Shown in pieces: positions 13,967-25,072 of a DNA stretch of 64,000 nt. The notes beneath the pieces were generated by a model. It worked only from the letters and a program-made list of their open reading frames with translations. It did not search any database and was not told the DNA's origin. Within the stretch, counting starts at the first letter, position 1; the number at the start of each line of letters is the position of its first letter. Origin of the DNA: Halorubrum trapanicum (lineage in GTDB: Archaea; Halobacteriota; Halobacteria; Halobacteriales; Haloferacaceae); the NCBI RefSeq assembly GCF_017873555.1, contig NZ_JAGGKE010000001.1:1-64000 (forward strand). Direction: 5' to 3'. A program made the position numbers and the translations under genes.

Positions 13967-15457
13967 TCACCGCACGTGTTTCCCGCCCAGCTCCCACAGC
14001 CGGTCCGCGATTTCGTCGTCGAGCGCGTCCCGGGTGACGCGCCACTCCCAGTTGCCGTCCAGCGTCCCCGGCTCGTTGAACCGCGCCTCGCTGCCGAGTC
14101 CGAGCAGGTCCTGTAGCGTCGTCACGGCGAGGATCGCGTCCGAGGCCCACACCTCGTCGATGATCGCCCACTCGCTCGGCTCGTCGGGGTCCGAGCCGAC
14201 GTTGTACCGGAAGCAGTCGCGCTGTTCGGGCGGCAGGTCCTCGAAGTAGCCGACCCACGTGTCCGTGTCGTGCGTCGAGGTGTAGCCGACGACGCCCTCG
14301 TCGTAGTGCATCGGCTGGTACTCGTTCCCCTCCGCACACCAGTCGGCGTACTGCGGGACGCGCATTCCCGGGAAGCCGAACTCGGCCATCAGCCCGTCCA
14401 TCGCCGGCGCCTCGAAGCCGAGGTCCTCCGCGATGAAGGGGGCCTCGCCGAGCTCGCGCTCGACCGCCTCGAACAGGTCGCGGCCCGGCCCGTCGCGCCA
14501 CTCCCCGTCGCCCGGGTCGCCGCCCTCGGCGGGGATCGCCCAGTACTTCGCGAACCCGAGGAAGTGGTCGAGCCGCGCCACGTCGGCGAGCTCGAACAGC
14601 CGGCGGAACCGGTCGAGCCACCAGTCGTACCCCGACTCCGCGAGCCGGTCCCAGTCGTACAGCGGATTCCCCCAGCGCTGGCCGGAGTCGCCCGCGTTCG
14701 GCGGGACGCCCGCGACCGCGGTCGGGCGGTTCCCCTCGTCGAGCCGGAACGCCTCCGGGCTGGCCCACACGTCCGCGGAGTCGAGCGCGACGTAGATGGG
14801 CACGTCGCCGACGATCGACACCCCCTCCTCGGCCGCGACCGCGCGCAGGTCGCGCCACTGGCGGTCGAACGTCCACTGGACGAATTCGCGGAACCGGACC
14901 TCGCGGGCGTGCTCGTCGCGCGCCTCGGCCAGCGCCTCGGGGTCGCGCGTCCGCAGCGGCTCGGGCCACTCGGTCCAGACGTCCTCCGGCCGCGCCTCCG
15001 AGACCGCCCGGAACAGCGCGTAGTCGGGGAGCCACGGCTCGCGCTCGCGGAACGCGTCTATCGCCGCGCGGTCGTCCTCGGTCGCCCGCTCCTCGAAGCG
15101 ATCGAAGGCGGTCCGCAACAGCGGGAGCTTGTACTCCCGGACCGCGTCGTAGTCGACGCGGTCGGTCGGGAACTCGGGGACCGGCTCTAGGTCGTCTCGG
15201 TCGAGCCAGCCGTCGTCGACGAGTCCCTCGGGGTCGACGAACAGCGGGTTGCCGGCGAACGCCGACGGCGACTGGTACGGCGACTCCCCGGCGACCGAGA
15301 GCGTCGGGCCGATCGGACAGATCTGCCAGTGGTCGACGCCGGCGTCGCCGAGGAACGAGAGGAACTCGCGCGCGCCCTCGCCGAGGTCGCCGATCCCGTA
15401 CGCCCCCGGCAGCGAGGTGACGTGACAGAAGACGCCGTCGGAGCGGTCGAATCGCAT
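13967..15457 (-). CDS. malQ: 4-alpha-glucanotransferase (amylomaltase, GH77)
   Basis: A 496-residue cytoplasmic enzyme that disproportionates maltodextrins. GH77 hallmarks are present: CHVTSLPGAYGIGDLG at the N-terminus, SPYQSPSAFAGNPLFV, VARLDHFLGF (nucleophile Asp), FIAEDLGF (acid/base Glu) and STHDTDTWVGY (transition-state Asp). The start MRFDRSDGVF is preferred over an ATG seven codons upstream by family length and N-terminus. It lies upstream of the cation exchanger and next to the GH13 amylase and glucoamylase, forming an alpha-glucan utilisation block. Confidence 0.95.
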   Translation of the reverse strand: MRFDRSDGVFCHVTSLPGAYGIGDLGEGAREFLSFLGDAGVDHWQICPIGPTLSVAGESPYQSPSAFAGNPLFVDPEGLVDDGWLDRDDLEPVPEFPTDRVDYDAVREYKLPLLRTAFDRFEERATEDDRAAIDAFREREPWLPDYALFRAVSEARPEDVWTEWPEPLRTRDPEALAEARDEHAREVRFREFVQWTFDRQWRDLRAVAAEEGVSIVGDVPIYVALDSADVWASPEAFRLDEGNRPTAVAGVPPNAGDSGQRWGNPLYDWDRLAESGYDWWLDRFRRLFELADVARLDHFLGFAKYWAIPAEGGDPGDGEWRDGPGRDLFEAVERELGEAPFIAEDLGFEAPAMDGLMAEFGFPGMRVPQYADWCAEGNEYQPMHYDEGVVGYTSTHDTDTWVGYFEDLPPEQRDCFRYNVGSDPDEPSEWAIIDEVWASDAILAVTTLQDLLGLGSEARFNEPGTLDGNWEWRVTRDALDDEIADRLWELGGKHVR

Positions 15458-15565
15458 ACGCCACCCTGCGATCCCCACCGACTCAAGCGTTGCGTCCGCC
15501 CGGGTCGCGTCCGAGCGAACCGCACCGCGGTCGGCCGCGGGGAGATCGATCGAGCGGTCGGCCGC

Positions 15566-17692
15566 TCACTCCGCTTCGACCGGCACCACCGCCACCTCGT
15601 CGACGCGGATCCGCTCGGTCCCGTCGCCGTCCTCGACGACGCACCGCTCGCCGGCCACCAGGTCGCGCTCGCCGTGGTCGAGTTCGACCGCGACGCTCGC
15701 GTCGGCCGGCGCGAAGTTGAGGACGACGACGAGGTCCTCCTCGCCGTCGCTCCGGCGGAACGCGACCACGTCGTCCGGGTGGACGTCGCCGCTGGCGACG
15801 ATCGGTTGTTCCGAGAGATCGCCGCTCGCGACGTGGTAGCCGACGCGGTCGAGTTCGCCCGCGGGACCGAGCGCCGGGTGCTCCCGGCGCGTCTCGAGCA
15901 GTCGCTCGTAGCGGTCGCGGACCTCTTCTCGCGCGTGGTCCCACGCGATCGCGTCGCGGCGGCCGCGCTGGCCGATCTCCTGGCCGGCATACACCATCGG
16001 GACGCCCGGAAGCGTCATGATCGCCGCGCCAGCGGCGGCCGCGGCCGCGTCCCCGCACTCGACGCGGTAGCGCGTCTCGTCGTGGTTCTCGATGTACTGG
16101 AGGAACTCCGCGTGGTCGGGGAACCCGATCTCGGCGCGCCCGTCGACCGCGTCGAGGACGGTCGCCGCCGGCTCCGCGCCCCGGCCCACCTGTCGGAGCT
16201 GGAAGTACAGCGTCGCGTCGAAGTGGACGTCGAACATCCCCTCGTGGAACCCGGGGATGTACGGGATCGTCTCGTCCATCAGGAGGAACTCCCGGTCGAT
16301 GTCCTTCACGCGGTCGCGCAGTTCGCGCCAGAACGAGTCGGGGACCGCCCACGCCATGTCGCAGCGGAACCCGTCGACGAGCGGCGCCCACTCGTCGATC
16401 ACGTCCAGCAGGAACCGGCGTACGTCGAGGTTCGCGTGGTTCAGGTTCGCGATCAGCTCCCAGTCGAAGTAGGTGCCCGGCTCGCCGGACGCCTGCCACT
16501 CGTAGCGGTCGCGGAACGGCGAGTCGGGGTTCCGATACGCGTCCCGAAACCACTCGTGGTCGCGCGCGGTGTGGTTGGCGACGAAGTCGAACAGCACGCG
16601 CATCCCGTGGTCGTGGGCGGTGTCGACGAGCGCCTCGAAGTCGTCGCGGTCGCCGAGGTCGTCGGCGGTGTCGAAGAAGTCGACGATATTGTAGCCGTGC
16701 GGCTTCCCGTCGTGGCCGAGGACCGGCGTGAGCCAGAGCGTGTCGACGCCGAGTTCGGCAATCTGCGGGATCCGCTCGGCGATCGCGTCGAACGCTTCCC
16801 CCTCCTCGGCGTCCGCGAAGGTGCGGACGAACACCTCGTAGACGGCGGCCTCCCGGGTCCACTCGGGCGGGTCGTTGAGTCGCCGCGTCTCGAAGTCGGG
16901 CGTGTCCGGCGTCAACACGGCCTCGCCGCCGGCGGCCTCGCCGATCGCAGACGCGCCGTCGCCGGCGCGCTCGACCGCGGCCGCGTCGGCGACGCTGACC
17001 CGCGGGTTCTCGCCCGGATCCCTCGCGACCGCGACGGCGTGAACCCGAAGTCGGTCCGGCACGGCGTCGAGCGGCACGCGGAGCTCGCGGCCGTCCTCGC
17101 CCACGCGCAGCGCGTCTCGGGGATTCGACCGACCGTCGGCGACCGCGGTCTCGACGTCGCGGTCGTCGACGACGAACGTCACCGTCAGGTCGTCGGCGTC
17201 GAGCGTCGACTCCGGGTTCGGCGTCGGAACCGCGGTGAACACCGCCTCGCCGGCGCTTTCGCCCGACGGATATTCGGTCGCTTGCCCCGCCGACTCCTCC
17301 CCGTCGAACGCGACGCTCGCGTCCACCTGGACCCGCGGGCGACCGACCCCCTCGTGTCGCTCCCGCGCGGCGTAGTCGCTCGGTATCCCGTCCGCGTCGC
17401 GGTCGCGTATCGCGGTGCCGCTCCCGCCCGCGACGTCGACGCCCTCGTAGCTCGCGGCGAACGCGCGCACCGTGAGCAGGTGGTCGCCGTCCGGCGCGTC
17501 GAGTCCGAGCAGGTAGCGACCCGGCACGTCCGGGGTGAACCCGGTCACGGGGGCGTCGCCGACGGTCGCCTCGCTGTCGGGCGGCGCGTCCGCGACGCGC
17601 CACGCGTACGTTGCGTCCGGGTCCGGGTCTCTCGGTGCAAGCTCCGTCCGCTCGCCGGTCGGGAGGAAGCGCGGGGGTCCGGGGTGGTGCAT
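15566..17692 (-). CDS. GH13 alpha-amylase-family glucan hydrolase
   Basis: A 708-residue enzyme. About 240 residues of beta-sandwich-like N-terminal modules precede the (beta/alpha)8 barrel. Barrel regions are readable in order: LFDFVANHT (region I), DGFRCDMAW (region II, nucleophile Asp), FLLMDETIP (region III, acid/base Glu) and YIENHDETR (region IV). A C-terminal all-beta domain closes the protein. There is no signal peptide, so it is presumably intracellular and acts on maltodextrins or glycogen; specificity (amylase, cyclomaltodextrinase, neopullulanase) is not decided. It is divergent from the glucoamylase across 130 bp. Confidence 0.92.
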   Translation of the reverse strand: MHHPGPPRFLPTGERTELAPRDPDPDATYAWRVADAPPDSEATVGDAPVTGFTPDVPGRYLLGLDAPDGDHLLTVRAFAASYEGVDVAGGSGTAIRDRDADGIPSDYAARERHEGVGRPRVQVDASVAFDGEESAGQATEYPSGESAGEAVFTAVPTPNPESTLDADDLTVTFVVDDRDVETAVADGRSNPRDALRVGEDGRELRVPLDAVPDRLRVHAVAVARDPGENPRVSVADAAAVERAGDGASAIGEAAGGEAVLTPDTPDFETRRLNDPPEWTREAAVYEVFVRTFADAEEGEAFDAIAERIPQIAELGVDTLWLTPVLGHDGKPHGYNIVDFFDTADDLGDRDDFEALVDTAHDHGMRVLFDFVANHTARDHEWFRDAYRNPDSPFRDRYEWQASGEPGTYFDWELIANLNHANLDVRRFLLDVIDEWAPLVDGFRCDMAWAVPDSFWRELRDRVKDIDREFLLMDETIPYIPGFHEGMFDVHFDATLYFQLRQVGRGAEPAATVLDAVDGRAEIGFPDHAEFLQYIENHDETRYRVECGDAAAAAAGAAIMTLPGVPMVYAGQEIGQRGRRDAIAWDHAREEVRDRYERLLETRREHPALGPAGELDRVGYHVASGDLSEQPIVASGDVHPDDVVAFRRSDGEEDLVVVLNFAPADASVAVELDHGERDLVAGERCVVEDGDGTERIRVDEVAVVPVEAE

Positions 17693-17822
17693 GTGACGGC
17701 CATCGACGCCCGGGGCCTTCGGTGTTGCTCTTGTTCCGGTGCCACTCAGGGTAGCGACGCCCGGCACGGACGGTCCCCGCCGCGGTCGTCAAGGCTTTTA
17801 CTCCGGCAGGCGCAGGGCGCGT

Positions 17823-20800
17823 ATGCGACTGCGTACCGCCCTTACGGAACATGAACGTCGGCGCGGGGAGCGCTACCCGGCGGAACACTCGATGACCGCC
17901 GGTGCGTTCACCGGCGATGACGGCCGACTGGTCCACGTCGGGCCGGACGGGACCGTCCACGACTGTTCGTACTCCCTCTCCGGCGTCGGCGGCGCCGACC
18001 GGCTCCGGATGGGGATCACCGCCGGGCGCGGCGTCCGCTGGTTCGACGACCTGGAGACGACCCGCCAGCACTACGACGGGGACACGCCCCTCGTCGAGAC
18101 CGAGTACGACGCCGGCCGCTACACCATCCACCAGTTCGACCTGGTCGTGAGCGACACGCACCTCACCCACGTCGAACTCCGCGGCTCGCCGCCGGCCGAC
18201 GCCGAGCTGGTCGCCGCCTACGCGTTCTCGCCCGACATGGTCGAGGGCCGCGTCGGCAACATGGTCCACGAGGCCGCCGGTCCCGAAGACGGCGGCGTCG
18301 TCGAGGTGTATCACCGCACGGAACACGACTTCCTCACCGCCTCCACCGGTCTCTCGAACGCCCACGGCCAGCGGCTGCGGACGATCCCGGAACTGCTCGG
18401 CGAGGGCGAGGACGGCTTCCCGCACCGCGGCGAGATCGACCGCCGCGAGGACTCCCGGCTCACCCCGGACGTCGTCGTCCGCGCGCCCTTCGAGCGCGAC
18501 GGGCGGACCGAGCGAGTCACCCTCGCCGGCCGGGCCGTCGTCGACCGTCGGGAGGCCCGCGACACCGGCGACGACGCGAAGGACGCGCTCACCGACGGGG
18601 CCGACCGCCAGCGCCGCATCGAGGCGGTGTCGAACATCGCCACCGCCTACCTCGACGCCGACGACCTCCGCGAGGCCGCGGACGGCCGCGGGCCGAACGT
18701 CCCCGAGGACGCCCCGCGTCGGTCGGTGATCGCGAGCGACCTCCGCGCGCTCGACCTGCTCACCGCGGAGTCCGGCGCCCGGATCGCCGCGCCCGAGTTC
18801 GACCCGTTCTACTCCACCTCCGGCGGCTACGGCTACACGTGGTTCCGCGACGAGGCGACGGTGTCGACCGCGCTGCTCGGCGCGAGCGAGGAGCTCGACC
18901 TCGACGCCGACGAGGAGCTGCTCGCGGCCGCGAGCTTCTTCTGTCGCACGCAGGACGCCGACGGCTCGTGGCCCCACCGGGTGTGGGCCGACTCCGGGAA
19001 GGTCGCGCCCGGCTGGGCGAACGCCCGCATCGAGGGAGCGAACGGAACGCCCGGCCCGAACGACCAGCTCGACCAGCCCGCGACGGTCGTCGCCTTCTTG
19101 GCGACGCTGCGCCGCGAGGCGGACCTCCCGGCCGAGTGGCGCGACCGGATCGACGAGACGATCGCCGACGCCGTCGGCTTCCTCCTCGAGACGACCGAGG
19201 ACGACGGGCTGCCCCGCCGCTGTCAGAACTGCTGGGAGAACGCGCTCGGCCGGTTCACCCACACCGGCGCCGAGTACCTGCGGGCGTTCGCCGCGGTGGC
19301 GCGCGCGCCGGTCGGCGAGGAGCTCCGGGCCGACGCCGCGGACGCCGCGGACGCGGCGCTGTCCGGTCTCGACGCCCGCTGGAACCCCGAGACGGAGCGG
19401 TTCCTCCAGCGCGCGAGCGAGGAGAGCCAAGACGCCCGCGCCGACGCCAGCACCTTCGCGCTCGCGACCGCCGCCGCGGAGTACGCCGCCCTACTCGACG
19501 ACGAGTCCGCGGCGGCCGGCGGTAGCGACGCGCCCGCCGACGACTCCGCGCCCGCCGACGACTCCGCGCCCGCCGACGACTCCGCGGCTACTGACGGCTC
19601 GGGCGCCGGGTCGATAGAGTCCGTCGAGGCGAGCGAGTTCGACCGGTTCCTCGACCGCGTCAACACCCACGTCCGGCGGTCGATCGACGCCCTCCGGCGC
19701 GAGACCGCCTCGGTGGAGGGACTCGTCAGGTTCACCGGCGACGACTGGCGCACGGCCGAGCAGGGCGCCGCGAAGGTGTGGTCGATCGCGACGCTGTGGG
19801 GCGCGAGCGCGGCGGCGACGCTCGCGGGCGTCGTCGAGGAGCGCGGCGGCGCCTCCGGGCCGCTGTTCGCCGACGCCCGCGAGCTGTACGCGCTCTGTGA
19901 ACCCGACGGTCCGTTCGTCAACGAGGCGGGACTGTTCGCGGAGCAGGCGTTCGACGACGGCGATCTCGACAGCGCGACCCCCATCGCGTGGTCGCACGCG
20001 CTCCGGATCGACGCGACGGTGACGCTCGCGAGCCACGGCGAACTCCCGGTCCCGCACGACCGCGAGACGGGTCCCGAGGCGGCGCCCCACTGGACCACCG
20101 GTCGGAAGTTCGGCGTCGGCACGCCCGCGGACTACGAGAGCGACGAGCCGGTGCCGGTGTGGTTCACGCTCACCGAGGGTGCGCTCACCGAGGCGCGGTT
20201 CCCCCGGATCGACGTGATGAACGTCCGGACGTTCGACTTCCTCGTCGCCGACCCCGACTCCGAGTACGCCGTCCGGACGTTCGACGAGACCGACCACGTC
20301 GCGACGACGGAGACGGTCGAGCGGACGACGGAGCCGGCGGCCGACGACGCGCTCGCGTACGTCCAGACGATCCGCGAGACGGGCGACGGCCACGGCCACA
20401 GCTGGACGCTCAGAGTCGAATACGCGGTCGACACCGACGGGACCGCGATCCTCGCCGACGTCCGGTTCGAGGGGAGCCGCGAGTACGACGTGTACGCGCT
20501 CGCCGACGCGACGGTCGCCAACGTCGGCACGAACGACCGCGCCGAGCGCGTCGACGGCGACGCGGGGGCGCACCTGCTCGCGCGCAAGGACGAGCCCGAC
20601 CGCGACGCGGGCAAGCTCGTCGACGACGAGGGCGAGCCGTTCGACCCCGCGCTCGCGCTGGCGAGCGGCGACGGGTTCGACTGGGCGAGCGCGCTCGCGG
20701 CCGGGAGCGAGGCGGCGGACGCGCTGTTCGGCGACGGCGAGCGCGGCGCGGAGTCCGACGAGGCGGTCGGCAACGTCGTCCTCGCCGGTCTCGTCGGCAG

Positions 20801-22592
20801 CGGCGAGGCGGTCGCGGACACGGTCGCGCTCGGCTTCGCCGAGGCGTCGGACACCGCGGCCGCGCTCGGCGAGGCCGAGGGGGCGCTCGCCCGCGGGTTC
20901 GACGACGCCGTGGACGCGTACGCCGAGACCTGGCGCGCGTGGCTCGCTGACCGCGAGCTTCCGGACTCGGTCGCGGGCGACCCCGACCTCGCGGCGCAGT
21001 ACCGCTTCGCGCTGATGACGCTGGCGGCCGTCGAGGACAAGGCCCACGACGGCGCGGGGATCGCAAGCCCCTCGGTGCCGTGGGGCGAGACCGAGTACGC
21101 CGCGGAGGACCGCGGCTACGGCTACAACTTCGTCTGGTCGCGGGACCTCTACCAGGTGTTCACGGCGCTGATCGAGATGGACGAGCTGGAGCGCGGCGCC
21201 GACGCCCTCGCGTACCTGTACAACACCCAGCAGGACGACGACGGGTTCCTCCCGCAGAACACCTACATCGACGGGCGGACCCGGTGGGGCGGCGAGCAGA
21301 TGGACAACATCGGGTTCCCCTCGGTGATGGCGTGGCAGCTGTACGAGCGCGGCGTGACGCTCGCCGACGCGGGCTACACCTACGAGCAGGTGAGCCGCTC
21401 GCTCGATTATATCGCCGAACACGGTCCCGAGACCGCACAGGAGCGCTGGGAAGAGGAGGCCGGCTACTCGCCGTCGAGCATCGCGGCGGAGATCGCGGGC
21501 CTGGTCTCCGGCGCGGCGCTCGCGCTCGCGGAGGCCGACCGCCGCGACGGAGCCGAGTCCGGGAGCGACGCCGCGGCGTCGCCCGGCTCGCTCCGCGCCG
21601 ACGCGCTCGCGTGGCTGGCGCTCGCGGACGACTGGACCGCGCGCGTCGAGGACTGGTGCGCGACCGCGACCGGCACCGACCGCCACAGGGAGACCCCGTA
21701 CTACCTCCGGATCACGGCCGACGGCGACCCCGAGGCGGGGCGCCCCCGAACCATCGCCAACGACGGGCCGACGTACGACGAGCGGGAGATCGTCGACGGC
21801 GGCTTCCTCGAACTCGTCCGGCTGGGGATCAAGCCTGCCGACGACCCGGTCGTCCGCAACTCAGTCTCCGTCGTCGACGACTCGATCCGCGTGGACACGC
21901 CCCACGGCGCCGCCTGGTACCGCTACGTCGGCGACGCGTACGGCGAGATCGCGGTCGGCGACCCGGGCGCGCCGTGGGCCGGAACCGGCGACGGCCGCGG
22001 GCGCCTCTGGCCCATCTTCACCGGCGAGCGCGGCGAGTACGAGCTGCGCGCCCGCGCCGACGGTCCCGACGCCTTCGGCGGCACCGACGACGAGAAGCTC
22101 GACCCCGAGGCGCTGTTGGAGACGATGGCCGGCTTCGGCAACTCCGGACGCATGCTCCCCGAGCAGGTGTGGGACCGCGAACACCCGACGAAGTACGGCT
22201 GGGAGTTCGGCGAGGGAACCGGGGGGGCGACCCCCCTCGCGTGGTCGATGGCCGGCTTCGTCCGGCTGGCGCACGGCGTCGACGCGGGCGAGCCGGTCGA
22301 GACGCCGACCGTCGTCCGCGAGCGTTACGTCGAGCGCGGCCGCCCCGCCGGTCCCGACCTGACGGCCACAGCCGAGTTCGTCGAGGACTCCGTCGTCGTC
22401 GCCGGCGAGACGGACGCCGAGTGCGTCGCGGTCCACACGCGGAAAATCTCCCGTCTCGTGACGCTCGACGACGACGGCGCGTTCGAGGTCGACCTCGACG
22501 CGGCGACCGACGCGGACACCGTCGTGGTCGCGGCCGCGACCGACGAGGAATTCGAGACCGCCGGCACCGCGGTCGAGCGAATCCGGCTGTAG
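17823..22592 (+). CDS. Double-module GH15 glucoamylase/glucodextranase-like protein
   Basis: A 1589-residue protein, roughly twice the usual family length. It contains two successive halves, each with a beta-sandwich-like N-terminal part and a GH15 (alpha/alpha)6 region. Half 1 starts MRLRTALTEHERRRGERYPA and has DCSYSLSG and GYTWFRDEA (~338). Half 2 starts near APHWTTGRKFGVG (~residue 755), has GYNFVWSRDL (~1100) and the ERWEEEAGYSPSS acid motif, and ends with an Ig-like extension. A repeated Ala-Pro-Asp-Asp-Ser linker lies at ~569-587. TATA-like cttttac lies ~25 nt upstream. No signal peptide. It would release glucose from alpha-glucans supplied by the adjacent GH13 and GH77 enzymes. Confidence 0.93.
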   Translation: MRLRTALTEHERRRGERYPAEHSMTAGAFTGDDGRLVHVGPDGTVHDCSYSLSGVGGADRLRMGITAGRGVRWFDDLETTRQHYDGDTPLVETEYDAGRYTIHQFDLVVSDTHLTHVELRGSPPADAELVAAYAFSPDMVEGRVGNMVHEAAGPEDGGVVEVYHRTEHDFLTASTGLSNAHGQRLRTIPELLGEGEDGFPHRGEIDRREDSRLTPDVVVRAPFERDGRTERVTLAGRAVVDRREARDTGDDAKDALTDGADRQRRIEAVSNIATAYLDADDLREAADGRGPNVPEDAPRRSVIASDLRALDLLTAESGARIAAPEFDPFYSTSGGYGYTWFRDEATVSTALLGASEELDLDADEELLAAASFFCRTQDADGSWPHRVWADSGKVAPGWANARIEGANGTPGPNDQLDQPATVVAFLATLRREADLPAEWRDRIDETIADAVGFLLETTEDDGLPRRCQNCWENALGRFTHTGAEYLRAFAAVARAPVGEELRADAADAADAALSGLDARWNPETERFLQRASEESQDARADASTFALATAAAEYAALLDDESAAAGGSDAPADDSAPADDSAPADDSAATDGSGAGSIESVEASEFDRFLDRVNTHVRRSIDALRRETASVEGLVRFTGDDWRTAEQGAAKVWSIATLWGASAAATLAGVVEERGGASGPLFADARELYALCEPDGPFVNEAGLFAEQAFDDGDLDSATPIAWSHALRIDATVTLASHGELPVPHDRETGPEAAPHWTTGRKFGVGTPADYESDEPVPVWFTLTEGALTEARFPRIDVMNVRTFDFLVADPDSEYAVRTFDETDHVATTETVERTTEPAADDALAYVQTIRETGDGHGHSWTLRVEYAVDTDGTAILADVRFEGSREYDVYALADATVANVGTNDRAERVDGDAGAHLLARKDEPDRDAGKLVDDEGEPFDPALALASGDGFDWASALAAGSEAADALFGDGERGAESDEAVGNVVLAGLVGSGEAVADTVALGFAEASDTAAALGEAEGALARGFDDAVDAYAETWRAWLADRELPDSVAGDPDLAAQYRFALMTLAAVEDKAHDGAGIASPSVPWGETEYAAEDRGYGYNFVWSRDLYQVFTALIEMDELERGADALAYLYNTQQDDDGFLPQNTYIDGRTRWGGEQMDNIGFPSVMAWQLYERGVTLADAGYTYEQVSRSLDYIAEHGPETAQERWEEEAGYSPSSIAAEIAGLVSGAALALAEADRRDGAESGSDAAASPGSLRADALAWLALADDWTARVEDWCATATGTDRHRETPYYLRITADGDPEAGRPRTIANDGPTYDEREIVDGGFLELVRLGIKPADDPVVRNSVSVVDDSIRVDTPHGAAWYRYVGDAYGEIAVGDPGAPWAGTGDGRGRLWPIFTGERGEYELRARADGPDAFGGTDDEKLDPEALLETMAGFGNSGRMLPEQVWDREHPTKYGWEFGEGTGGATPLAWSMAGFVRLAHGVDAGEPVETPTVVRERYVERGRPAGPDLTATAEFVEDSVVVAGETDAECVAVHTRKISRLVTLDDDGAFEVDLDAATDADTVVVAAATDEEFETAGTAVERIRL
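19530..19583 (+). repeat. Three 18-bp tandem repeats encoding an APADDS linker
   Basis: Three perfect copies of gcgcccgccgacgactcc (19530-19547, 19548-19565, 19566-19583) stay in frame and encode repeated APADDS inside half 1 of the glucoamylase. The acidic, proline-containing unit is a flexible insertion in the catalytic region, likely variable in copy number between strains. Confidence 0.9.
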
Positions 22593-22644: not shown

Positions 22645-23103
22645 TCACCCGAGCGCGACCACGTCGACCGCGCGGGAGTCGCCGTCGCCGTCGATCTCGA
22701 CCGACGAGCCGATGCTCCTCCGAACGCGCTCGCGCCAGTCCTCGACGGCCTCCGCGTGTCGCTCCCGCCGGGCTTCGAGGTCGGTATCCGGGTGTTCGGC
22801 GGCGGTGTCGTCCGGCTCGGGGTACGGCGGTACGTCCGCGACGAGGTCCCGAGGATCGATGTGAAGCGGGGCGGGCGCGTCGTCGGCGCTCCTGGCGTCC
22901 CTCTCGTCGGTCCCGTCCCCGCCCGCGTCGAGCGCGTGAAGTCGAGCGCGCATCCGTCCGGAGAAGGGCGGCGTCGCGCGGAGGACGACCTCTCGGTCGC
23001 TCCGGAGCGCGGCTTCGAGGGCGTTCGCCACGTCCTCGCGGTGGACCGCGATCGACCGGATCCGGCCGGGTCCGGGGTCGCTGCCGGGCTCCTCCTCAGT
23101 CAT
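22645..23103 (-). CDS. Haloarchaeal conserved protein of unknown function, coupled to MutS-like gene
   Basis: A 152-residue acidic protein with a conserved-looking N-terminus (IRSIAVHREDVANALEAALRS, then REVVLRATPPFSGRMRARLH) and a disordered, Asp/Glu-rich middle. The C-terminal helix DLEARRERHAEAVEDWRERVRRSI precedes a short strand VDVVAL. Its ATG at 23103 overlaps the 3' end of the MutS-like gene by eight nucleotides, so both are co-transcribed and probably translationally coupled. No function can be assigned from motifs; the linkage suggests a role with the MutS-like ATPase, but that is inference. Confidence 0.75.
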   Translation of the reverse strand: MTEEEPGSDPGPGRIRSIAVHREDVANALEAALRSDREVVLRATPPFSGRMRARLHALDAGGDGTDERDARSADDAPAPLHIDPRDLVADVPPYPEPDDTAAEHPDTDLEARRERHAEAVEDWRERVRRSIGSSVEIDGDGDSRAVDVVALG

Positions 23104-24946
23104 CGTTCGCCGTCCACTCGGCGTCCGAGAGCGTGCGCTGGACCGCCTCCTCGCCGACCGCGCCGGCGAGGTGCTCGAAGCCCGCGCGGACGCCGCGGTC
23201 GCTCGCGTTCGCGACCAGCCGCGAGACGATGAACTCCGGCGTCGACTTCCCGACCGTCTCGAACCGCGGCTGGTAGTCGACGCGGAGGTCGAGGTCGCTC
23301 GTCAGCCCCTCCGCGAAGATGCCGTCGATGCGTGCGGCGTCGGGCAGCGGACTCAGGTCCTCCGCGAGGTGGGTGACGTAGACGCCGAGCGCGCCGCGGT
23401 CGACGGTGAGCGTCACCAGCCCGTTCAGCAGGTCGGCGGCGCGGCCCGGCTCCGTGATCGCCTCGAACTCGTCGACGAGCATGAGCGTGCGGCCGTCCGC
23501 GACCAGCGGCGGGACGACCGACTTCAGCGTCGACTCCAGCACGCCGGCGTTGAAGGAGGCGTGCCGGCGGTGGAAGACGATCCGGTCGAACGTCCCGACC
23601 TCGGCCGCGTCGGCGGGCACGGGCAGCCCCATCGACGCGAGCAGCGCGACCGCACAGAGGGTCTCCAAGAGCGTCGTCTTCCCGCCGGAGTTCGCCCCGG
23701 TGAGGACGCTCACGCGGTCGCCCGTCGGCGGCGCGTCCGCGCTCGCGACGCCCGCGTCGTCCGCGAGCGAGTGGGATCCGACGCCGTAGGAGACTGGCTG
23801 GACCTCGCCGTCGAGGAACGGGTTCCGCGCCCCGCGCACGGCGATCCCGTCGTCGACGAGCGTCGGTCGGACGTGGCCGTTCTCGGCCGCGAACCGGCCG
23901 AGCGACAGCAGGAACGCGGCGTCGGAGACCGCCGTCGCGGCGCGGGCGACGGTGGTGTCCCCGTCGTCGCTCTCCGCCTCATCGCCGTCGTCGCTCGCGT
24001 CCGCCGCGGACTCGTCTCCCAGCCGCTCGCGGATGTCGGCCGCCACGGCAGCCTCCCGCTCCTCGACCGCCGATTCGAGTTCGACGACGAGGTCCCGGAG
24101 CGTCCCGGAGACGAAGTCGGCCGCGTCGAGCGCCTCGTCGGGCGCCGCCGACCGGACCGTCGCGGGCTCGACGCCGGTCTCGCGGGCGACGTGGTCGATC
24201 GTCGCCGCCTCCAGCGCCTCGAAGTCGCGGAGGCTCCCGTCGCGGACCGATTCGAGCACGTCGAACGCGGAGTCCGCGAGGTCGCGCGCGGCCGACAGCT
24301 GATCGCGAAGTCGGTCCAGTTCCGCGTCGGCACCGCTCGCGATCTCGATGTCGTCGCCGTCGAGTCCCCCGGCGGGGTCGATCGACCCCCGCACGTCGGC
24401 GAGGGCGTCGGCCGCGTCTCGAAGGCGGTCGCCGTCGAGCGCGCCGACGTCGGCGAACGGACCGTCCGTCAGCCTCGCCTCGCGGAGCGCGACAGCGGTC
24501 TCGACCGCGGCCAGGTCCGACCCCTCGGCCTCGTCGTACGCCGCGAAGGCGTCCGCGACGGCCCCGCGCTCGGCGTCGTCGAGACCGGCCCACGCGTCGC
24601 GGGCGGCGACGACGCGATCGAGCCGCGACTCGACGGCGTCGCGGTCGAGCAGCGGGGTCAACACCCGGATGCGGTCGGCGGCGTGCGCGGTGAGCGCCTC
24701 GCCCGCCGCGAGCGCGAGGAGGTCGTCGTACACCGAGCGCGCGTCGCCCGTCGCGAGCACGTCCATCCCGGCCTCGCCGTTCGCCCGGCGGAGGATGCGA
24801 GTCGCGCGGCCGCGGTGGAGTCCGGCGTCGACGAGCGCGCGGACATCGGCCGATTCGATCGCCTCGACCGCCCGCTCGGTCCCGAGCGCCTCGGTGAGCC
24901 GCTCGCTCGTCTTCGGGCCGATCCCCCAGTAGTCCTCCAGTCGCAT
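23096..24946 (-). CDS. Archaeal HhH-MutS-like DNA repair ATPase
   Basis: A 616-residue protein. It begins with a helix-hairpin-helix segment (YWGIGPKTSERLTEALG, residues ~6-22, and a second hairpin near 40-55) instead of the MutS mismatch-recognition domain. A long helical core/clamp follows, then the MutS ABC-type ATPase with Walker A GANSGGKTTLLET (~416-428), Walker B TLMLVDEFEAIT and a conserved FHRRHASFNAGVLEST segment between them. Such proteins resemble MutS2/MutS5-type factors that act on branched DNA rather than mismatches. Start is set at MRLEDYWGIGPK, as the upstream frame is Arg-rich shadow. It is the first gene of a two-gene operon. Confidence 0.85.
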   Translation of the reverse strand: MRLEDYWGIGPKTSERLTEALGTERAVEAIESADVRALVDAGLHRGRATRILRRANGEAGMDVLATGDARSVYDDLLALAAGEALTAHAADRIRVLTPLLDRDAVESRLDRVVAARDAWAGLDDAERGAVADAFAAYDEAEGSDLAAVETAVALREARLTDGPFADVGALDGDRLRDAADALADVRGSIDPAGGLDGDDIEIASGADAELDRLRDQLSAARDLADSAFDVLESVRDGSLRDFEALEAATIDHVARETGVEPATVRSAAPDEALDAADFVSGTLRDLVVELESAVEEREAAVAADIRERLGDESAADASDDGDEAESDDGDTTVARAATAVSDAAFLLSLGRFAAENGHVRPTLVDDGIAVRGARNPFLDGEVQPVSYGVGSHSLADDAGVASADAPPTGDRVSVLTGANSGGKTTLLETLCAVALLASMGLPVPADAAEVGTFDRIVFHRRHASFNAGVLESTLKSVVPPLVADGRTLMLVDEFEAITEPGRAADLLNGLVTLTVDRGALGVYVTHLAEDLSPLPDAARIDGIFAEGLTSDLDLRVDYQPRFETVGKSTPEFIVSRLVANASDRGVRAGFEHLAGAVGEEAVQRTLSDAEWTANDD

Positions 24947-25072
24947 ACGCCGTGGTGTCGCCCCGGCGTCTTGGCGCTTTCGTCGCCCGCGCCGGCGACT
25001 CGCAATCGCCTTGGTGGCGTCTGTCCCTCTTTCACGACAGCACTCATCCCGATTCGGCCCGTACGCGTCGAC

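Follow-up and report, generated by a model that had tools for sequence, protein, structure and literature searches.

A haloarchaeal protein with two successive GH15 units of separate lineages, each with a conserved predicted catalytic pair

Introduction

An amyloglucosidase has been purified from Halorubrum sodomense, reportedly the subject of Chaga et al. in 1993. According to the available text of PMC8305020, the purified enzyme has not yet been assigned to a gene. That source lists two glucoamylase candidates that are among the closest known systems: HVO_1711 of Haloferax volcanii, whose C-terminal half is matched by a Clostridium glucoamylase, and A0A1I6HD35 of H. sodomense, whose link to the purified amyloglucosidase is called likely. 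Only the C-terminal half of HVO_1711 is matched there, and the available part of the paper makes no mention of a second GH15 unit. In the open-licence literature, we found no account of two GH15 units in one protein, nor any that describes the N-terminal half as another GH15 unit.

The solved enzymes most relevant here are the Arthrobacter glucodextranase (1ug9/1ulv), in which Glu430 is the acid and Glu628 the base (PMC9883506, available text), and the Thermoanaerobacterium glucoamylase (1lf6/1lf9). The accessible sections of PMC12446779 name GH15 active-site residues, including TtGA Trp390, which is tied to 1,4-specific enzymes, and AgGD Trp582. They also report Gly857-Glu858-Ser859 around the nucleophile of the Gluconobacter dextran dextrinase (9ju0), in contrast to the Glu-Gln of inverting enzymes, and state that inversion and retention are not distinguishable from sequence alone. 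A GH15 mutant of Sulfolobus acidocaldarius is consistent with a role in glycogen degradation (PMC11046441, available text).

Here, we describe a GH15 gene at 17823..22592 (+ strand, stop codon included) in a 64,000-nucleotide stretch of Halorubrum trapanicum DNA, referred to as the window. The gene is one uninterrupted open frame of 1589 residues, and the ATG at 17823 fits as its start because M1 was invariant in all 41 rows of alignment A1, made of the window protein and its relatives. The H. sodomense orthologue (L072) shared 92% identity with the window protein and about 52% with Haloferax orthologues, and the latter value fits the 51% given in the available text of PMC8305020. The window protein belongs to a known family, the N-terminal half of which seems not to have been described before.

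Results

Two GH15 units in one chain

The protein had been predicted to be a tandem double glucoamylase with two successive beta-sandwich plus GH15 units. This layout was confirmed, as Pfam searches of each half, structure models and a profile-profile match all agreed on it, but the halves are not a recent duplication, as described below. Half 1 (residues 1-741; 17823..20045, + strand) is an N-terminal beta-sandwich followed by a GH15 (alpha/alpha)6 barrel of an archaeal lineage, an assignment made from Pfam PF00723, the model and the best solved folds, which are GH15. Half 2 (residues 742-1589; 20046..22589, + strand) consists of a glucodextranase-type N domain, a GH15 barrel and a C-terminal beta-sandwich tail, as seen with PF09137, PF00723, the alignment to 1ug9 and the model. 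When each half was searched alone, both exceeded the PF00723 gathering cut-off of 22 bits (37.2 bits for half 1 and 115.3 bits for half 2). Half 2 also passed for the PF09137 glucodextranase N domain (162.6 bits against a cut-off of 24.1) and was alignable by phmmer with 1ug9 across query residues 750-1584. A Big_6 match in its tail (E 0.078) was under the Pfam cut-off and no domain is claimed. We put down to chance the weak hits on foot-and-mouth capsid chains (E 0.44) and on the designed protein 4D2 (E 0.17-0.2).

In the models of both halves, a strand-rich N-terminal portion precedes an all-helical one, with a mean pLDDT of 86.3 for half 1 and 83.9 for half 2. Half 2 matched 1lf6 (Z 40.4) and 1ug9 (Z 38.6), and the next match, 9ju0, reached only 27.0. 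The N domain, the barrel and both catalytic Glu of the Thermoanaerobacterium and Arthrobacter enzymes are like those of half 2 (37% and 32% identity, respectively, by structural alignment), but these are single-unit enzymes, unlike the fused protein. The closest solved fold to half 1 was the Kribbella isomaltose glucohydrolase 5z3a (Z 35.9, 2.4 A, 319 aligned, 18% identity), followed by the dextran dextrinase 9ju0 (Z 34.5, 3.7 A, 566 aligned, 12% identity); 1lf6 (Z 33.0, 3.4 A, 569 aligned) and 1ug9 (Z 31.3, 3.2 A, 568 aligned) were also matched. Since many of the 50 matches listed for half 1, all with Z of at least 26.5, are not GH15, its fold supports membership in the family and is no proof by itself. 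Its profile reached 1lf6 with E 0.0004 and 9ju0, around the acid, with E 0.00021.

Neither half could be placed in the NCBIfam subfamilies that were tried. Half 2 scored 473.8 bits (whole protein 482.7) with the glucan 1,4-alpha-glucosidase model TIGR01535, which has a cut-off of 741.9. Half 1 fell far short of the 820.7 cut-off of the oligosaccharide amylase model TIGR01577, with 76.3 bits (whole protein 117.4). The archaeal trehalase model TreH1 (NF041084, cut-off 820) did not match half 1 and gave 15.3 bits for half 2.

Conserved catalytic glutamates in both halves

The original prediction held that one or both active sites may be altered, since neither PIAWSHALR in half 1 nor PLAWSMAGF in half 2 ends with the Glu of PLxWxxAE. 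These letters are as quoted and the motif Glu is missing from both halves, but alignment of each half to known GH15 enzymes located both an acid and a base elsewhere in each. In half 2, the residues were placed by counting along the phmmer alignment to 1ug9 and 1lf6. The predicted general acid is E1210 in RWEE (codon 21450..21452, + strand), aligned to 1ug9 E430 and 1lf6 E438, and the predicted general base is E1447 in PEQ (22161..22163, + strand), aligned to 1ug9 E628 and 1lf6 E636. A MAFFT alignment of 61 sequences placed the predicted acid of half 1, E472 in CWEN (19236..19238, + strand), in the column of E1210 and the two reference acids, and its predicted base, E707 in AEQ (19941..19943, + strand), in the column of E1447 and the reference bases; the EQ motif was present in all 61. 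Comparison of the two halves by hhalign (probability 95, E 3.5e-08) likewise paired CWEN with RWEE and AEQ with PEQ.

E472 and E707 were invariant in 43 of 43 half-1 rows, as were E1210 and E1447 in 35 of 35 half-2 rows, though the rows for residue counts were picked by similarity to the window protein and some loci are possibly from the same species, so that the counts are not independent events. The same pair was found in 18/18 single-unit GH15 proteins from the phylum, outside the class. The predicted base precedes the Pro of the quoted motif by 13 residues in half 1 and 24 residues in half 2. The crystallised glucodextranase 1ug9 itself reads PLSWAMAQ at this motif and, therefore, the Glu of PLxWxxAE is not the catalytic one. 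Alignment puts the base ahead of PLAW, at the Glu of an EQ motif.

Other positions of known GH15 active sites, namely the tyrosine, Arg-Asp, Trp, Gln and Ala, were also conserved. Among the residues named in the available text of PMC12446779, half 1 has Y336, D343, W398 (TtGA Trp390), Q708 and A718, and half 2 has Y1101, D1108, W1155 (TtGA Trp390), W1385 (AgGD Trp582), Q1448 and A1469. Half 2 thus combines the TtGA-type Trp of 1,4-specific enzymes with the AgGD-type Trp of glucodextranase, the latter position holding W in 33 of the 35 rows and F in the other 2. W398 and Q708 were invariant in all 43 half-1 rows; across the 21 half-1 rows used for the comparison, so were Y336, W340, R342, D343, R636 and W653. 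The Gly-Glu-Ser signature of dextran dextrinase was not found in half 1, which reads A/P/S-E-Q, with Q in 43/43 rows.

Several positions departed from the references. Both references have the second E of WEE at position 473, which in the 43 half-1 rows was N (27 rows), D (14 rows) or G (2 rows). At the E of QxDE, also E in the references, position 418 was Q in 40/43 half-1 rows (D417-Q418 in the window) and position 1162 was N in 31/35 half-2 rows (D1161-N1162 in the window), the other rows having E (3 rows) or Q (1 row). None of these changed positions is a catalytic Glu and, to our knowledge, fungal glucoamylases likewise lack the E of QxDE. Position 642 was W or F in the 21 half-1 rows of the comparison and Tyr in the references. 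The loop before QxD in half 1 was longer in haloarchaea than in single-unit archaeal GH15 proteins.

A repeat in a variable loop of half 1

The repeated APADDS noticed in half 1 is real. Tandem Repeats Finder detected 3.2 perfect 18-base copies at 19529..19586 (+ strand), situated in a loop between two barrel helices that was modelled with low confidence (pLDDT under 50 at residues 584-594). The segment around it, 546-612, has 67 residues in the window protein, against 41-55 in seven further fused rows of the genus and 22-25 in the remaining 20; in 15 separate half-1 rows, it has 22-25 residues in 13 and 39 in 2. The APADDS letters were missing from the other 42 half-1 rows. This has the look of common slippage at a repeat, in a loop that tolerates it, and the variant is confined to the window protein.

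Two old lineages rather than a duplication

A FastTree phylogeny of 61 sequences and 351 columns, with the root placed by us on the half-2 side, put 21 half-1 sequences and the 18 GH15 proteins from the phylum outside the class on one side of a split with support 1.0, and half 2 with the two reference enzymes on the other. The 18 proteins, from genomes taken to be mostly those of methanogens, scored 45-177 bits with the half-1 profile versus 13-47 bits with the half-2 profile. Single-unit archaeal GH15 proteins of the same phylum (about 620-700 residues) thus fall in the half-1 lineage in the tree but have no second GH15 unit fused to them. Given this split and an identity between the halves of 24% in the profile-profile alignment, a recent tandem duplication was ruled out. 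The double protein reads as a fusion of two old GH15 lineages, in which half 2 resembles bacterial glucoamylase and glucodextranase and half 1 belongs to the other lineage, common to non-haloarchaeal members of the phylum. Six same-genus comparisons gave dN/dS values of 0.13-0.42 (half 1) and 0.16-0.33 (half 2), indicating purifying selection on both halves.

Distribution of the fused gene and of separate units

A match was found in 78 of 145 class genomes. In at least 59 of the 145, including all 16 same-genus rows, the half-2 match lay in an open frame of at least 1497 codons, as counted by hand among the matches listed; the other 19 matching genomes had no frame of this length among the matches listed. 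Across 246 phylum genomes, there was no half-1 match outside the class in a frame of more than 704 codons among the matches listed. In a contig search, the best 80 of 265 relatives were kept, a set that leans towards close relatives and in which at least two loci (L133 and L144) hold only part of half 2 at a contig end; a single frame matched both halves in 80/80, and the closest loci were from Halorubrum. The occurrence of the fused frame in the 16 listed same-genus genomes, in at least 59/145 class genomes and in the 80 kept loci rules out a sequence or assembly artefact joining two genes.

Many genomes also carry half 1 by itself, frequently next to a GH13 gene of its own. The window's own genome has a separate half-1 paralogue at C6:71817-74000 (L052:5818-8001) that is 43% identical to half 1; this paralogue has a nearby amylase relative of its own on the opposite strand. 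On a plasmid of Halomicrobium urmianum (L192:5965-10408), half 2 (800 aa) and half 1 (660 aa) are separate neighbouring genes, each with its catalytic pair, in a cluster that also holds an alpha-amylase, a TrmB-type regulator and a sugar ABC transporter. Since half 2 comes before half 1 there, a frameshifted fusion was ruled out. A similar cluster on a Halobaculum limi plasmid (L193:5578-17727) has half-1 and half-2 type genes flanking an ABC transporter ATPase gene.

The N-termini were inspected by eye. The 7/7 separate half-2 proteins inspected begin with a twin-arginine-like signal, but none was seen in the separate half 2 of H. urmianum, in 6 fused N-termini or in 3 separate half-1 N-termini. 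From these N-termini, we infer a cytoplasmic location for the fused enzyme. In H. limi, the separate half 2 (which appears as L069) has a twin-arginine-like signal and a possible lipobox, and by sequence one unit may be outside the cell and one inside in this organism.

The record of Halobellus captivus ZY8 (L102) carries a gene and gene order that are Halorubrum-like (half 1 68% identical), versus 45% for Halobellus captivus ZY21 (L121), and the species name of L102 may be wrong.

A conserved amylase neighbour

The divergent neighbour of the fused gene is a GH13 alpha-amylase, MalA (15566..17767, - strand), with 884.9 bits for NCBIfam NF041321 (cut-off 875). The match starts at residue 26, and the annotated start of MalA may lie slightly inside the frame. 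We take the NF041321 model to be the Haloarcula japonica enzyme. Next after MalA is a 4-alpha-glucanotransferase of GH77, MalQ (13967..15478, - strand; Pfam PF02446 520.5 bits, TIGR00217 285.9 bits with a cut-off of 205.65). According to a reference title cited in the available text of PMC11239784, the Haloarcula japonica alpha-amylase is intracellular.

Among the best 80 of 265 relatives, an amylase relative adjoins the fused gene in 77 loci, and in the 3 without one the DNA begins no more than 351 bases before the gene. In a second set, an amylase relative was found in 17 of 20 fused loci (within 700 bases in 16), with no amylase match in the other 3, and in 10 of 15 separate half-1 loci (within 700 bases in 9). 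The fused gene on a Halobaculum lipolyticum plasmid is surrounded by sugar-nucleotide genes, and no gene annotated within 6 kb of it is MalA or MalQ. The annotation "glycoside hydrolase family 15 protein" is given to two fused relatives on plasmids.

Two further genes were observed downstream in the window. One is a 152-residue frame without a Pfam match (22645-23103, - strand), whose position after the fused gene is conserved in 32 of the 35 loci L072-L106. The other, next to the starch genes, encodes a MutS domain V protein that also matches helix-hairpin-helix weakly (23096-25015, - strand).

Discussion

The gene encodes a real, conserved and probably two-site enzyme. We consider it likely that it is an exo-acting alpha-glucan hydrolase with two complete GH15 sites in one chain, fused from two lineages, that works with MalA and MalQ to turn internal glucan into glucose. 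In this mechanism, two GH15 enzymes that had long been separate would have been fused, one of the archaeal lineage (now half 1) and one of the bacterial glucoamylase/glucodextranase type (now half 2). The Glu after the Trp (E472 and E1210) would protonate the glycosidic oxygen, while the Glu of the EQ motif (E707 and E1447) would activate water, so that glucose would be released with inversion. Endo-cleavage by MalA, disproportionation by MalQ and the fused enzyme together could convert an intracellular maltodextrin or glycogen-like polymer to glucose. Release of glucose from internal alpha-glucan would be the simplest joint function of the three, and the role may be shared with the separate half-1 paralogue. 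Points that count against this reading are the changed positions 473, 418 and 1162, the scores of both halves under the NCBIfam cut-offs, the H. lipolyticum locus with neither MalA nor MalQ and the 3 of 20 fused loci in which no amylase was matched.

The two halves could also be complementary, an idea that we put forward only tentatively. Half 2 would take 1,4 and 1,6 ends with its two tryptophans and half 1 would finish other or shorter chains, and together with MalA and MalQ they would strip branched alpha-glucan without a phosphorylase or a separate debranching enzyme. Other haloarchaea have the same two units next to each other as individual genes, in keeping with a working partnership of the halves.

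Another explanation is that half 1 is an active GH15 enzyme but no glucoamylase, acting on another alpha-glucoside such as isomaltose-type 1,6 ends or transferring glucose like dextran dextrinase. The ranking of 5z3a and then 9ju0 as its closest folds would agree with this, as would the profile match to dextran dextrinase around the acid and the D or N at position 473, where dextran dextrinase has Asp672 (PMC12446779, available text). The Z gaps are small, however, including that to 1lf6, and the identities are only 12-18%. In addition, W398 aligns with TtGA Trp390 of the 1,4-specific enzymes, and the Gln kept after the base, where dextran dextrinase has Ser859 after Glu858, argues for inversion (PMC12446779, available text). 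We therefore regard a different substrate or glucose transfer as rather unlikely.

It is less probable still that only half 2 is a working glucoamylase and that half 1 is catalytically silent, kept for alpha-glucan binding, salt stability or regulation. Half 1 is more divergent from the solved enzymes, as its E values with 1lf6 and 9ju0 indicate, it departs from the references at 418 and 473, and in the published comparison HVO_1711 is matched over the C-terminal half (PMC8305020, available text). Against silence, E472, E707, Q708 and W398 are invariant in all 43 half-1 rows and six further residues in 21 rows, half 1 is under purifying selection, and many genomes carry it by itself, frequently with a GH13 gene of its own alongside. 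That either site lacks its catalytic Glu, as the missing motif Glu in both halves had suggested, is almost certainly wrong and already refuted, since 1ug9 is also without that Glu and E707 and E1447, in the preceding EQ motif kept in all 61 compared sequences, align with known bases.

With two GH15 sites as the preferred reading, the results correct an interpretation of the motif that would label a conserved enzyme inactive. They indicate that a "glycoside hydrolase family 15" protein widespread in haloarchaea is made of two complete units of two old lineages; therefore, annotations with a single activity are probably incomplete. The fused gene, with four named Glu, is a candidate for the purified H. 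sodomense amyloglucosidase. If it is true that the halves differ in specificity, the protein would represent a naturally occurring single-chain saccharifying enzyme active in high salt.
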